The notes beneath the pieces were generated by a model. The model was not told the DNA's origin. It was given only the letters and a program-made list of their open reading frames with translations, and made no database searches. This document shows, piece by piece, positions 32,784-38,685 of a DNA stretch of 57,951 nt; the first letter of the stretch is position 1, and each line of letters opens with the position of its first letter. The stretch is taken from positions 1-57,951 of the forward strand of contig QHSA01000142.1 in the NCBI GenBank assembly GCA_003220315.1, in the 5' to 3' direction. Position numbers and translations under genes: made by a program. The stretch comes from Candidatus Rokuibacteriota bacterium. Its GTDB lineage: Bacteria; Methylomirabilota; Methylomirabilia; Rokubacteriales; CSP1-6.

Positions 32784-33800
32784 CTAGCCGACGCCCCGAC
32801 GCTCGGCGAGCACCGCGCCCAGGAATTCGACCGCGTGGCGCTCCGCCCATGAGTCGACGCGCCACGGCCAGCGCCCATCGATGAAGCCCGCGTGGCCGCC
32901 CCGCGGCGTGAACTCGGTGCGCACCCACGGCGGCAGCGTCGAGGGGTCCGGGAGCGCGTCGGGCGGCACGAGCGGGTCGTCGAGGGCGCTGATCAGAAGC
33001 GTCGGCCGGTGGATCCGCCGAAGATAGGGACCGCTCGACGCCCGGACCCAGTAATCGTGCTCGTCGGCAAACCCGTGCAGGCGCGCGGTCACGGCCCGAT
33101 CGTACTCGCCGAAGGTGCGCGCGCGCAGGCCGAGCTCGAGGTCCACGAGGATCGCGAAGTTCGGATCGCGCTCGGCCTTCCGGCGGACCTTGTCGCGCAT
33201 GTACGTGAGGAAGCTCGCGGTGTACACGTACTTCCTGAATCCCCGGTCGAGCACGCGCGCACACGGCACGAGGTGGAAGGGCGCCGAGATGGCAACGGCA
33301 CCGACCACTTGCTTCGGCGCGTCGAGCTCGCGCTCACCGAGCCACTTGAGAAGGACGTTGCCGCCGAGCGACACGCCGACGACGCCGATCGGCGCGTCGG
33401 CGTCGCGCTCGAGCAGAAGCCCGACGACGTGATCGAGGTCGTCGGTGTGACCCGAGTGATAGAACTGCGGTCGCCGATTCAGCTCTCCGCTGCACGAGCG
33501 GAAGTTGAGCGTCAGCGCGCGCCACCCACGCGCCGCGGCGTGCCGCATGAGGCCCGCGGCGTAGTGGGAGCGCGAGGAGCCCTCGAGGCCGTGAAGGACG
33601 AGCAGGCGGGGGGCGCCGGGCGACGCCTGGCCGTCCACCCAGTCGAGGTCGACGAAGTCGCCGTCGGGCAGGACGACGCGCTCCCGCCGCGACCGGATCC
33701 GGTCACGGCGGAAGAGCGGGCCCCAGATGGTCTGGAGATGGCCGTTCCGGCACCACCAGGCCGGCCGGAACGGAGCGGGGGTTACTCCTGACCCTGCAAT
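32784..33800 (-). CDS. YheT-type alpha/beta-hydrolase, start codon non-standard or unresolved
   Basis: Alpha/beta-hydrolase of the YheT/ABHD1-3 family. The nucleophile elbow is GVSLGGN, the acid lies near LISALDDPLVP, and the catalytic His is in GGHAGFIDG. An ORF with a standard start opens only at GTG 33638 and lacks the family N-terminus, yet the same frame upstream encodes it perfectly (PFRPAWWCRNGHLQTIWGPL). The open stretch back to an in-frame TGA holds no ATG, GTG or TTG. The best candidate is ATT at 33800, inside the end of the UGSC gene, giving 338 aa, the usual family length. A sequencing error is the alternative. Downstream of, and overlapping, the UGSC selenoprotein gene. Confidence 0.78.
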   Translation of the reverse strand: MAGSGVTPAPFRPAWWCRNGHLQTIWGPLFRRDRIRSRRERVVLPDGDFVDLDWVDGQASPGAPRLLVLHGLEGSSRSHYAAGLMRHAAARGWRALTLNFRSCSGELNRRPQFYHSGHTDDLDHVVGLLLERDADAPIGVVGVSLGGNVLLKWLGERELDAPKQVVGAVAISAPFHLVPCARVLDRGFRKYVYTASFLTYMRDKVRRKAERDPNFAILVDLELGLRARTFGEYDRAVTARLHGFADEHDYWVRASSGPYLRRIHRPTLLISALDDPLVPPDALPDPSTLPPWVRTEFTPRGGHAGFIDGRWPWRVDSWAERHAVEFLGAVLAERRGVG

Positions 33801-34312
33801 AAGAGCTTCACGACCTCCGGCGCAATCTCACGGGCGCGCCGGTCGAGCTCGGCCTCCGTGAGGTTCGCGATCGGGTGGGGCATGAGCAGGAACTTGTAGG
33901 TCGGCACGCCCCACTGCCTGGCCATCGCACGACCGGTCACCTCGAAGACGTCCGTCACGATGGACGCCGACGGGACGCTCGCCTTCTCCAGCAGGATTCC
34001 GTCGAGCACACTGCCCGACGAGCACGAGCCTCAGTCGCCGATGCCTGCGACCATGACGTCGCAGGTCTTCCGGATCTCCGCGATGATCTCGTCGTGCGCA
34101 GGCACGGACGCGTTGTGTTTGTGGAACAGCTTCCAGTCGGCGGCGCCGTACTCGGCTTTCAGGATCTCGCCGATCTTGGCGAGGAGCCGGTCCGAGTTGA
34201 ACTTCGTGTTCTCGATCAGCCCGACGCGCTTGCCTTCGAGCGACGCCGGCCGGTCGACGAACGCGATGGTCTGCGTCGCGACCTCAGCGGTAGGGTCGAG
34301 GAGCTCGATCAT
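33782..34312 (-). CDS. UGSC-motif selenoprotein (UGA 34031-34033 read as Sec94)
   Basis: 176-aa protein visible only if the in-frame UGA at codon 94 is read as Sec. The N-terminal half is MIELLDPTAEVATQ ... GKRVGLIENTKFNSDRLLA, the Sec motif is VMVAGIGD-U-GSCSSGSV, and the C-terminal half is LDGILLEKASVPSASIV ... WGVPTYKFLLMPHPIANLT. A selenoprotein family defined by the UGSC motif has been described from metagenomes; this is a clear member. The U-x-x-C loop followed by an (E)KxxVPS strand and an HPIAN-like end recalls the Sec region of GrdB/PrdB reductase subunits (inference). ATG 34312 overlaps the stop of the 344-aa partner gene by 4 bp. A SECIS-like hairpin follows the UGA. No membrane segment. 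Confidence 0.9.
34000..34020 (-). other. Candidate bacterial SECIS element of the UGSC gene
   Basis: A 9-bp stem, CGTCGGGCA with TGCTCGACG (one G-U pair), closes a GTG loop. The loop G is 20 nt after the UGA. Confidence 0.68.
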
Positions 34313-35343
34313 CGTCTGACCTCCTTGGTGACGGCCTGAGAGCTTCGACTGCTGGACCATCCGGGGATGTAGGCCGAGAAGGCGCCGGCGCGGCCGCCGG
34401 CGGCGACCACCAAAATGTCGTCGGGCGAGGCGACCAGCGGCCGCAGCTTCGTCTCGTCGCCGGGCTGGATCGGGCCCGCCATGCGCCCCGTGCGCTTGAG
34501 ATGCGCGTGGGAGTTTTGCGTGTGCTCCCAGACGAACTGTCGGATCCGCTTCTTGTCCCAGCCGTCGCCGGTGATCGTCCGCGTGTGCTCGCCGGCGAGC
34601 ACGAGCGCGTAGTGCGGCTGCCCCATCACGTTGCCCGAGATCCGCATGTCGTCGCACAGCGTGGTGAGCACCCCCTCGGCGGTGTTGGAGAGCTGGTTGT
34701 AGAACTGGTGGGGCGCCTCCGCCGCCATCACGGTGACCGTGGACTGGTCGGCGCGGAAGCCGCGCTCGACGTGGAGTGGCGTCCACGGGCTCTCCGCCTC
34801 GTTCTCCGCGATCACGTACGAGAGCTTGCCCGGGTGGCCGAGCGTCCCGCGGTCGAGCGTGCCGGGCATCGAGCCGCAGACGTTCCGCATCACGAGGCGC
34901 ACCGCGCGGCCGATCGTGAGGTTCGCGCGCCAGCCGGGGCCGAAGAGGTTGTCGCCCGCGTTGACGTCGAGGTCGCGGGCGATCGGCCCGTTGACGATCA
35001 TGAGCACCCCGGCACCCGCGGTAGACGTCCCCGGGCCGTGGTAGCTCCAGCGCGGGTCGGCGATCCCCTCGACCGCCGCGACGACCACGGGCATGAATTC
35101 GGGTTTGCAGCCCGCCATCACCGCGTTGATCGCGACCTTCTCCGCCGTGATCGAGACAGCCCGGTGGGCGACGAAGCCGATCTCCTGCTTCGGGTCGAGC
35201 CGGGCGCCCTCGAGCATACGGGCGACGCGGTCGGCGGTCGGCGGAACGACGGGCAGGCCGTCGGTCCAGCCCTGGGCGAAGCAGAACTCGATGGCGTCAC
35301 CCACTTCAACATTGTGGCGCCGGGCGGTGAGCTGAGCGGGCAT
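34309..35343 (-). CDS. Unknown-function partner of the UGSC selenoprotein
   Basis: 344-aa soluble protein I cannot assign to a named family. It shares strong motifs with the C-terminal 400 residues of the Sec fusion protein at 35924-37513: GWTDGLPVVPPT (about 30-41), VNGPIARDLDVNAG, LGHPGKLSYVIAENEAESPW, PLHVERGF, and a late LVLAGEHTRT. The acid- and His-rich AENEAESPW-x-PLHVERG stretch is the best candidate for an active or metal site. Its stop overlaps the UGSC start by 4 bp (ATGA), and the homologous domains occur fused elsewhere in the window. The two proteins therefore almost certainly form one enzyme. The substrate is unknown. Confidence 0.85.
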   Translation of the reverse strand: MPAQLTARRHNVEVGDAIEFCFAQGWTDGLPVVPPTADRVARMLEGARLDPKQEIGFVAHRAVSITAEKVAINAVMAGCKPEFMPVVVAAVEGIADPRWSYHGPGTSTAGAGVLMIVNGPIARDLDVNAGDNLFGPGWRANLTIGRAVRLVMRNVCGSMPGTLDRGTLGHPGKLSYVIAENEAESPWTPLHVERGFRADQSTVTVMAAEAPHQFYNQLSNTAEGVLTTLCDDMRISGNVMGQPHYALVLAGEHTRTITGDGWDKKRIRQFVWEHTQNSHAHLKRTGRMAGPIQPGDETKLRPLVASPDDILVVAAGGRAGAFSAYIPGWSSSRSSQAVTKEVRR

Positions 35344-35418: not shown

Positions 35419-35906
35419 CTACCGCGGGCCCGGAAGCAGAGCGGCTACGCCGATGGCGGCTCCACGGGCCGAGAGTGGAAAGATCTGATCGTCGGGGCCG
35501 AGCTCCTGCACGGCGCCGTGGCGCCAGCCGGACGGCGCCTCTCGGTCGATCCTCGGATTGCGCCGAACTTCCATTCGCCGGCCGTCGACGTCGAGGATCC
35601 AGTAGTCTCGAAGAAGTCCCCCGGGCCACCCTCAACCACCGCCACATCGGGCTCCGGCTCCGAGTCGGAGCCGAGGGCAATCGGCATCTGGATCCTCACC
35701 TGCCAGCCGGGGCCGAAGGCCCTCCGGAGCGCCTCGGCGACCAGGAGAACGGCAGCGGCATGCCGCGCGGCCTGCGGCTCTTTGCAGACGAGCTCGCCAC
35801 CGACCAACTCCACACCCTCGTCCTCGTGGAGCAACCCGAGGGCGATGAGGCGATCATACTCCGCCCGCGTCCATCACCGCGTGCGCACCTGCCGGACCCC
35901 CATCAT
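35419..35906 (-). pseudogene. Uma2-family endonuclease-like gene, broken
   Basis: Remnant of a Uma2 (DUF820) PD-(D/E)XK-fold protein. The N-part reads MGVRQVRTR-stop-WTRAEYDRLIALGLL, where a TGA stands in the place of an Arg (CGA to TGA is one step), and continues VELVGGELV ... EPDVAVVEGGPGDFFE. The C-part is in another frame: YWILDVDGRRMEVRRNP ... DQIFPLSARG. The core between them (the LLVVEV-SLxxDRxxK catalytic stretch) is missing. So the copy has a nonsense codon, an internal deletion and a frame change. It sits between the two UGSC loci. Confidence 0.7.
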
Positions 35907-35923: not shown

Positions 35924-37513
35924 CTATCGGGCGATTGCGACGGTGACCGACCGCGTGGCGCCGAAGGTCGGGATGATCGCGGAATGCTTGCCCGGCCCTC
36001 CCGCGACGATCACCATCAGGTCGTCCGGGCTCGCACAGAGCGCCACCTCCTCCGCGAGGAGCCGGCCCCTGAAGCGCTCGGGGTCGAGCACCCCGAAGCG
36101 CTCGCGATTCTCCGGACTGAAGCGGTCGAGCCTCACGCGGGCGCGCTCCCAGATCACCCGCTTGACGTCGGCCTTGGACCAGCCCGAGTCCGCGAAGGTC
36201 CGCGCGTGCTCGGGGCCGAGGACGACGAGCGGCTCGCCACCGAGATAGACGTCGTTGCTCCCCGTCGTCGCCGCGGTGCCCGCGAGCGCGAAGACGAGCG
36301 CCTCGGCGCTCGTCGAGCCGTGGTCGTTGACGTTGTGGGGCGCCTCCGAGCCGCACACGGTGACACAGCTCTCGGCCGCCCCGAAGCCGCGCTCGACGTG
36401 GAGCGGCGCCCATGGGCTCTCCGCCTCGTTCTCGGCCAGGCAATACGAGTACTTCCCTGGATGGCCGAGCGTCGCCCGGTCCTCCCGTCCCGGCCGCGCG
36501 CCGCCGACGTTCTGGAGGATGAGGCGCACCGCGCGGCCGATGACGGCGTTGGCGCGATGGCCCTGGCCGAGCGCGTTGGCGCCGGCGTTGATCCCGAGGC
36601 GCGGGGCGATCGGACCGTTGACGATCAGAAGTGGCGTGCACGGGTGCGTCGTCGTCTGGATCGCGTTCAGGTTGAAACGGGGATCGGCGAGCGCGCGAAT
36701 CGCGGCGACGACGACCGGCAGGTGCCCGGGCAGGGCGCCCGCGAGCGCCAGGTTGGCGGCGATCGCCTCGAGAGTCGCCACGCCCCGGCGGGGCGCGAGC
36801 GTCGCGATCACGTCGGCGCCGCGGGGCGCGAGGGGCCCGAGGATCCGCGCGACGCGCTCCGGCGTCGGTGGGAGCACGGGCATGCCGTCCGACCAGCCCT
36901 CGGCGAGGGCGAAGTCCTGGAACAGGTCGATGTCCGCTGGCGCGGTGACCGTCACGGCGACGGGGGCGGAGGCCGCCTCGGGCGGCGCCGGGTCGCGCGT
37001 GAGCGCGGCGATCACACGATCGACGACGCCGTCGGCCTTCGCGCGGGCGAGCTTCGGGTCGATGCCCCCGAGCGGGTGCGTCACCGCGACGAGCTGGAGA
37101 TGCGGCATGCCGAGCGCGGCCGCCGCGGCCTCGGCGAGCGAGACGAAGGCGTCGGTGCCCAGGACGGCGACCGGGACGCCGCGCGCCTCGATCTCCGCCG
37201 CGTCGTGGAAACTCCACGACGTGCAGGATCCTCAGTCGGCCGAGCCCGTGAGGACGACGTCCGACCCGGCAACGACCTCGTCGATCACCGTCGCGGGGCG
37301 CGACGCGCCGGGTTTCCGCCAGAGCGTCACCGGCCCGGCGCCCGCGCGCTCGACGAGCAGCTCCGCGACCCGGGCGAGCAGGACCTCCGCGTTGGGCTTC
37401 GAGTTGTCGAGGATGCCGACGCGGACGCCGCGCAGGTTTCCGCGGCGCCGGGCGAGCGGCTTGACGTCGCCGGCCGTCGTACCGAGCGGGCTCAGGAGGG
37501 TCAGACGACTCAT
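35924..37513 (-). CDS. Fusion selenoprotein: UGSC domain + partner domain (UGA 37232-37234 read as Sec94)
   Basis: 529-aa protein revealed by reading one in-frame UGA as Sec at codon 94, the same residue number as in the stand-alone UGSC protein. Residues 1-175 are the UGSC domain (VRVGILDNSKPNAEVLL ... VVLTGSAD-U-GSCTSWSFHD ... HLQLVAVTHPLGGI). Residues about 200-529 are homologous to the 344-aa partner (GWSDGMPVLPPTPERVARIL, VNGPIAPRLGINAG, LGHPGKYSYCLAENEAESPW, PLHVERGF, VVLGPEHARTF). Gene order in the two-gene version is partner then UGSC; here the order is reversed, showing domain permutation. ATG 37513 overlaps the MFS transporter stop (ATGA). A SECIS-like hairpin follows the UGA. No signal peptide. 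Reaction unknown. Confidence 0.9.
37201..37221 (-). other. Candidate bacterial SECIS element of the fusion selenoprotein
   Basis: A perfect 9-bp stem, CGTCGTGGA with TCCACGACG, closes a GTT loop. The loop G lies 20 nt after the UGA, the same spacing as in the other UGSC gene and the same loop as in the glutaredoxin SECIS. Confidence 0.72.
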
Positions 37514-38685
37514 CGCCCGGGAGTATAAGCCCGCGCGCGGCCGACCGCGAGTCCGGCCACCGCCGCGCCGGCGACCGCGAGCGCGGCGAGCGTGAACGCT
37601 TCGGCGAACGCGGGCTGAAAACCCACGACGCCCCGGCGTCCGCCGAAGACGGCTGCGAGGACCGCGACGCCGGTGACGAGGCCGAGGGTCCGCGCGAGGA
37701 ACGTAAGCCCGCCCGCGGCGCCCGCGTGGCCGGCGGGGAACGCCGCCATCACGCTCGCCATGTTGGGCACCTGGAAGACGCCGAGCCCGAAGCCGGCCGC
37801 GCCGAGGGCGAGCACGACGGCGGCGAGCGGCGTCGCCGCATCCGCGCGGCTCAGCGCGGCGAGCCCGACCGCCTCGAGGGCGAGCCCCGCCACCATCGGC
37901 GCGCGGGCACCCAGGCGATCGCTGAGCCACCCCGCGAGCGGCGCCGCCGCCGCGGTGCCGAGCGGCGTCAGCATGAAGAGCACGCCGCCGGCCGAGGCCG
38001 ACAGGCCCCGCACGCCGACGATGTAGAAGGGCGCCAGGAGCCAGATCGCGAAGATCGCGGCGTTGGCGACGAACGACAGCCCGCTCGCGACGAGCACCGG
38101 GGCGCGCAGGACGTCGCGCACGGCGACGAGCCGCCGGGAGGCGTCGCCGCTCTCGCGCGGGCGTACCGTCAGGGCCCAGCCGAGCGCGGCGAGCGCCACC
38201 GGGACGCGCGCGTGGAAGACCGCCCGCCAGCCGAGCGCGTCGACCAGAACGCCCGCGAGCACGGGCCCGGACGCGAAGCCGAGACCGATTGCCACGTTGA
38301 GGAAGCCCAGCCGGCGACCGCGGAGGGACGCGGCAGCGCCCAGCGTCGCGAGCGCGGGCGCCGTGCCGTAGACGAGCCCCCCGGCGACCCCCTGCACCGC
38401 GCGCCCGGCGAGGAGGAGCGGGAAGCTCGGCGCGGCGCCGCAGAGGGCGAAGCCGGCGACGGAGAGCGCAAGACCCACCCGGAACACGGGCGCGTGACCG
38501 ATGCGGTCCGCCGCCGCGCCGGCGACGAACGACATGACCGCATAGCTGCCCGTGTAGCAGATGATGATCCAGCGCATCCGCTCGGGCGGGGCGCCGAAGG
38601 CGGCGGCGATCGCCGGGAACGCGATGTTGACCATCGAGTCGAGCGAGACGACGAAGGCGCCCGCGGCCGCGACCCAGCGAACCAT
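37510..38685 (-). CDS. MFS transporter (12-TMS drug/metabolite exporter type)
   Basis: 391-aa integral membrane protein of the major facilitator superfamily. It starts MVRWVAAAGAFVVSLDSMVN, the DHA-type motif D1 region with a membrane Asp. Motif A is seen as GAAADRIGHAPVFRVGL after helix 2 and again as GWLSDRLGARAPMV after helix 8. Helix 5 has a Gly-rich exporter-like stretch. About 12 helices fit the length. The stop overlaps the start of the UGSC fusion gene by 4 bp, so the transporter and selenoenzyme are co-translated; it may import the enzyme's substrate or export its product. It diverges from the MaoC genes at 38746. Confidence 0.88.
   Translation of the reverse strand: MVRWVAAAGAFVVSLDSMVNIAFPAIAAAFGAPPERMRWIIICYTGSYAVMSFVAGAAADRIGHAPVFRVGLALSVAGFALCGAAPSFPLLLAGRAVQGVAGGLVYGTAPALATLGAAASLRGRRLGFLNVAIGLGFASGPVLAGVLVDALGWRAVFHARVPVALAALGWALTVRPRESGDASRRLVAVRDVLRAPVLVASGLSFVANAAIFAIWLLAPFYIVGVRGLSASAGGVLFMLTPLGTAAAAPLAGWLSDRLGARAPMVAGLALEAVGLAALSRADAATPLAAVVLALGAAGFGLGVFQVPNMASVMAAFPAGHAGAAGGLTFLARTLGLVTGVAVLAAVFGGRRGVVGFQPAFAEAFTLAALAVAGAAVAGLAVGRARAYTPGR

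Follow-up and report, generated by a model that had tools for sequence, protein, structure and literature searches.

Gene organization of the fusion locus

The window, the whole 57,951-nt stretch of DNA analysed here, belongs to a soil bacterium with a Rokubacterium-type genome. Its minus strand carries a gene (35924-37513) whose 529-aa product joins an N-terminal UGSC domain to a C-terminal partner domain. The frame opens with an ATG at 37513, runs through an in-frame TGA at 37234-37232 and closes with a TAG stop at 35926-35924. The UGSC domain (residues 6-172; 36998-37498, minus strand) matches Pfam PF24696 at 3.1e-47, with 161.3 bits passing the gathering score of 25, while the whole protein falls just below the cut-off of NCBIfam NF041046 (121.9 against 125 bits). 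Its UGSC motif (Sec-Gly-Ser-Cys) occupies residues 94-97, with the TGA codon at residue 94. The partner domain (35927-36967, minus strand) is 45% identical to a separate 344-aa protein encoded nearby (E = 4.8e-76). The original prediction of a single chain built from these two domains thus holds, as does the homology between the two partner copies on which it had been staked.

Since the DNA is G+C-rich and the opposite strand of the same stretch is also open over 514 aa, the length of the fusion frame is no proof of a gene and was given no weight. Its identification rests on homology, purifying selection and a conserved hairpin. Among eight Rokubacterial orthologues, dN/dS lies between 0.16 and 0.58 before the TGA and between 0.20 and 0.44 after it, which indicates purifying selection upstream and downstream of the codon alike. 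The predicted structure is confident over the whole chain (pLDDT 94.1, pTM 0.91).

The separate partner gene (34309-35343, minus strand; 344 aa) is found about 0.6 kb from the fusion and has no Pfam or NCBIfam family. A 176-aa UGSC gene (33782-34312, minus strand) follows, overlapping it by the 4 bases ATGA. This UGSC gene has an in-frame TGA of its own at 34031-34033 followed by a bacterial SECIS hairpin (34000-34020, minus strand; 9/9 pairs, GTG loop). The two-gene version is therefore partner-first and the fusion UGSC-first, as had been noted. This layout of fusion followed by partner-first pair is retained at Rokubacterial loci L033-L036, L039, L042, L053 and L062. A remnant of a Uma2-like gene (PF05685, partial profile) occupies 35445-35834 (minus strand) between the two units, and the gap of about 0.6 kb compares with about 40-115 bp in several relatives. 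Directly upstream of the fusion, an MFS transporter gene (37510-38685, minus strand; 391 aa) overlaps its start codon. Because this gene is also present at seven other Rokubacterial loci, it is likely to be an operon member with the fusion. An Rfam scan of the whole window returned no match.

Decoding of the in-frame UGA

A bacterial SECIS hairpin with a 9-bp stem and a GTT loop follows the TGA of the fusion (37201-37221, minus strand), at nt 14-34 when counting starts at the U of UGA. Across 75 unique TGA sequences, 8.2 of the 9 pairs form on average at this position. Synonymous shuffling lowers the pairing to 5.92 +/- 0.16 of 9, other offsets reach 5.1 at most, and the same region forms 4.1 of 9 pairs in 13 Cys versions. 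The loop falls at nt 23-25, with G-T at positions 23-24 in 74/75 sequences, a distance that satisfies the rule placing the apical loop of bacterial SECIS elements 16-37 nt after the UGA (PMC10778597). The genes for SelA, SelB and tRNA-Sec of this genome lie together on contig C281. TGA is kept at the fusion codon in nine Rokubacterial orthologues, namely the eight aligned ones and that of L033. A second TGA in L033 turned out to be its normal stop, so that this locus also encodes a fusion. Cys replaces Sec, giving a CGSC motif, in Mycobacterium, Rhodococcus, Arthrobacter, Roseovarius and haloarchaea.

To judge from sequence, codon 94 of the fusion is read as selenocysteine. A read error at this codon, which the original prediction had named as the result that would undo it, was rejected: the orthologues keep the TGA under low dN/dS, a SECIS hairpin with 8.2/9 pairs follows it, and the Sec machinery is present. 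It is hardly credible that the UGA acts as a stop between two proteins, or that the frame results from misassembly or from decay of the gene; default annotation does yield a 394-aa frame starting inside the UGSC domain, but TGA occurs in all orthologues, the hairpin exceeds its shuffled versions (8.2 against 5.9 of 9), the decoding genes are at hand and dN/dS is low on both sides.

Partnership of the two halves and origin of the fusion

Linkage was surveyed over 80 named loci of the genome collection, this genome and plasmid records, which together gave 111 partner stretches. UGSC lies within 2 kb of the partner in 99 of them. Five of the 12 remaining copies are near a contig end, leaving seven internal ones, two of which are halves of one broken gene. 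A partner gene on contig C112 of this genome (L029:8257-9288) has no UGSC for several kb. Among 40 relatives, both families occur in the same 30 and neither in the same 10; their copy numbers, which rise to 14 per genome, are correlated at r = 0.97. Pairwise distances of the two halves are likewise matched in a mirror-tree comparison (r = 0.90, against a maximum of 0.14 in 1000 permutations).

The link between UGSC and its partner is thus strong and general. In bacteria and salt-loving archaea alike, one half accompanies the other, so that the two very probably make up a single enzyme. The claim that a fusion proves this was too strong, but fusion, operon and co-evolution (99/111, r = 0.90) do support the view that the two domains work together. 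Separate substrate specificities for fusion and pair are plausible, since their partner copies are about 45% identical and relatives have up to 14 copies per genome.

Reversed domain order had been taken as a sign of permutation, a reading that the gene orders and the trees do not support. Separate genes occur in both orders: most are partner-first, and a sizeable minority are UGSC-first. The loci surveyed contain 13 fusions, L033 included, and UGSC comes first in 13/13. Ten are Rokubacterial, one per genome and counting that of the window; the others are on contig C248 of this genome, on a Sporomusa plasmid and on a Vibrio plasmid. The ten Rokubacterial fusions make up a single, fully supported clade in the trees of both domains, and this clade adjoins separate genes in UGSC-then-partner order. 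The partner-first pair of the window is placed elsewhere in both trees and appears to represent a different, older paralogue line. Domain permutation was therefore rejected: the fusion would require merely the loss of the gap between genes already arranged as UGSC then partner. The Sporomusa and Vibrio plasmid fusions (L115:7317-9041 and L116:6368-8053) carry DMGTS in place of the Sec/Cys motif, and a gene for aconitase X is close to each.

Kinship with GrdB and possible chemistry

In HHalign comparisons, the UGSC profile aligns with the C-terminal part of the relatives' GrdB-type proteins at 96.6% probability, Sec on Sec, against 0.1% for a column-shuffled control. Short PF07355 proteins of the relatives give a weaker 74.6%, and the fusion itself has a weak match to TIGR01917. 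Homology thus links UGSC to the C-terminal, Sec-bearing part of GrdB (PF07355, TIGR01917), which makes it a distant relation of glycine reductase. Unlike GrdB, UGSC has no GrdB N-terminal domain and is joined by another partner. This genome yielded no match to PF07355 (GrdB with its N-terminal domain) and lacks GrdE (PF09338), which was found in 7/7 searched relatives having GrdB. In relatives (G004:C196, G009:C11, G030:C119), full-length GrdB-like genes stand beside GrdE-like genes, both absent here, and those read carry a UGTSTRC-type Sec motif. A divergent protein of a Chloroflexi locus (L110:8825-10474) with a UGLC motif lies next to a partner gene and may bridge UGSC and GrdB-like proteins.

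Searches of 55 partner sequences against Pfam and NCBIfam gave scattered weak matches and no family, and PDB sequence searches with both halves gave nothing useful. The partner is thus an unnamed family with neither a Pfam or NCBIfam model nor a clear PDB fold. The residues invariant across this family are polar and rich in Gly and Pro (DG-P, N72, NGP, R145, E179-N-E and SPW). No similarity to the GrdE-type profile PF09338 was detected, with three clean sequences compared.

In D-proline reductase, PrdA/PrdB, a UxxC selenoprotein and its obligate partner carry out a thiol-fed reductive cleavage. The UGSC system resembles it in pairing a UxxC selenoprotein with a partner, but differs in that its partner has no link to the related GrdE-type pro-proteins among the few sequences compared.

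Neighbouring genes were identified by named queries, clustering of open frames being spoilt by antisense frames in the G+C-rich DNA. The order is trxB-trxA-partner-UGSC in Arthrobacter and partner-UGSC-trxB in Roseovarius, and a trxB or trxB-like gene occurs a few kb away in Variovorax (two) and Haloterrigena. Plasmid copies have TRAP, TTT or MFS carriers and CoA transferases close by; carboxylate carriers are beside most of them, and trxB or trxA is beside or near several. Since trxB is near one of the 80 genome-collection loci (L064), the link to this gene rests on plasmids and Cys-type copies. Glycine reductase takes its electrons from thioredoxin (PMC10298544).

The fusion may be a two-part reductase of small organic acids, fed by thiols or thioredoxin, that unites a GrdB-like Sec and a partner pocket in one chain; we give this reading an even chance. 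Both halves of one selenoenzyme would then be present in a single polypeptide derived from genes already in UGSC-then-partner order. The partner, with its polar and Gly/Pro-rich invariant residues, would supply the substrate pocket, and the Sec of the UGSC domain would attack a carbon of the organic acid, breaking a C-N, C-O or similar bond. A selenenyl-sulfide could then form with the resolving Cys, which lies three residues past the Sec, and be reset by thioredoxin and thioredoxin reductase or by another thiol. The neighbouring partner-first pair would be a paralogous enzyme, plausibly for another substrate.

Several observations count against a two-part reductase. The system has no counterpart of the pyruvoyl (Schiff-base) half of the glycine reductase scheme, given that the partner is unrelated to the GrdE type in the three clean sequences. 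Seven internal partner copies stand without a nearby UGSC, and trxB accompanies one in 80 of the collected loci. The UGSC motif is gone from the Sporomusa and Vibrio plasmid fusions, where the chain can thus do without Sec or Cys. More tentatively, and with the balance somewhat against it, UGSC and partner could represent a new and widespread class of two-part reductases, present in haloarchaea and in aerobic bacteria of soils and the sea. Their GrdB-like chemistry, based on Sec or Cys and dispensing with a pyruvoyl pro-protein, would split small organic acids, and a single genome would hold many paralogues, each specific for its own substrate.

It is unlikely that UGSC is instead a general thioredoxin-type thiol-disulfide or peroxide oxidoreductase and the partner a protein that it keeps reduced. 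The UxxC motif would fit such a role, as would the thioredoxin-like fold suggested for UGSC in 2008 (PMC2398784), and partner residues Cys78 and Cys176 are conserved in 77/87 and 72/87 sequences. However, Ala takes the place of Cys78 in all ten Rokubacterial fusions, and the homology of UGSC is to the C-terminal part of GrdB, which differs from the 2008 proposal. Furthermore, the 50 best PDB fold matches of the predicted structure, themselves weak, include no thioredoxin fold; they are flavodoxin/IIB-like, among them IIB-cellobiose, lumazine synthase and FMN reductase.

A similarly small chance is given to the partner being a hydratase- or hydrolase-like enzyme for which UGSC is merely a redox switch or product carrier. 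In Foldseek, the partner weakly resembles class I fumarase and cyclic amide hydrolases (best E = 2e-4), and aconitase X is encoded beside two plasmid fusions. Yet with TM-scores of about 0.3 and an rmsd of about 16 Å these are no real fold matches, and no Cys that could hold an Fe-S cluster is conserved in all 87 partner sequences. A single mixed complex of fusion and pair, in place of two enzymes, is quite improbable: the two units occur together at at least eight further Rokubacterial loci, but most organisms have one unit alone, and within each unit the two halves co-evolve with one another.

Among the selenoproteins of natural waters, those of the known UGSC family are some of the most frequent. 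The N-terminal half of the fusion is a member of this family (PF24696/NF041046) with the Sec-GSC motif, set apart by the attached partner and by a whole-protein score of 121.9 bits, below the NCBIfam threshold of 125. The idea of a UGSC fusion is not new as such: Zhang and Gladyshev reported a UGSC/'Unknown_1' fusion from ocean metagenomes in 2008 (PMC2398784), in which a UGSC selenoprotein is likewise joined to a conserved unknown domain. This Unknown_1 is likely to be the same family as the partner. New here are the generality of the partnership, the SECIS test, the relation to GrdB and the evidence that the fusion preserved a gene order already in place; the accessible text of 2008 (PMC2398784) does not mention the generality of the gene pair, the origin of its order or the link to GrdB. 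No paper on the biochemistry or function of UGSC was found in the literature searched.

A near-obligatory partner, active-site kinship with GrdB and one-chain forms together offer a single-polypeptide target for assay and structure determination. Annotation pipelines split UGSC genes at the UGA and leave the partner without a name, as in Paracoccus, where two short hypothetical proteins result. In Paracoccus ferrooxidans, these two short genes (L122:6369-6938) are just upstream of the partner; at the corresponding position, the record of the related Paracoccus versutus shows a TGA-containing UGSC gene. A selB gene is found nearby on the P. ferrooxidans plasmid.
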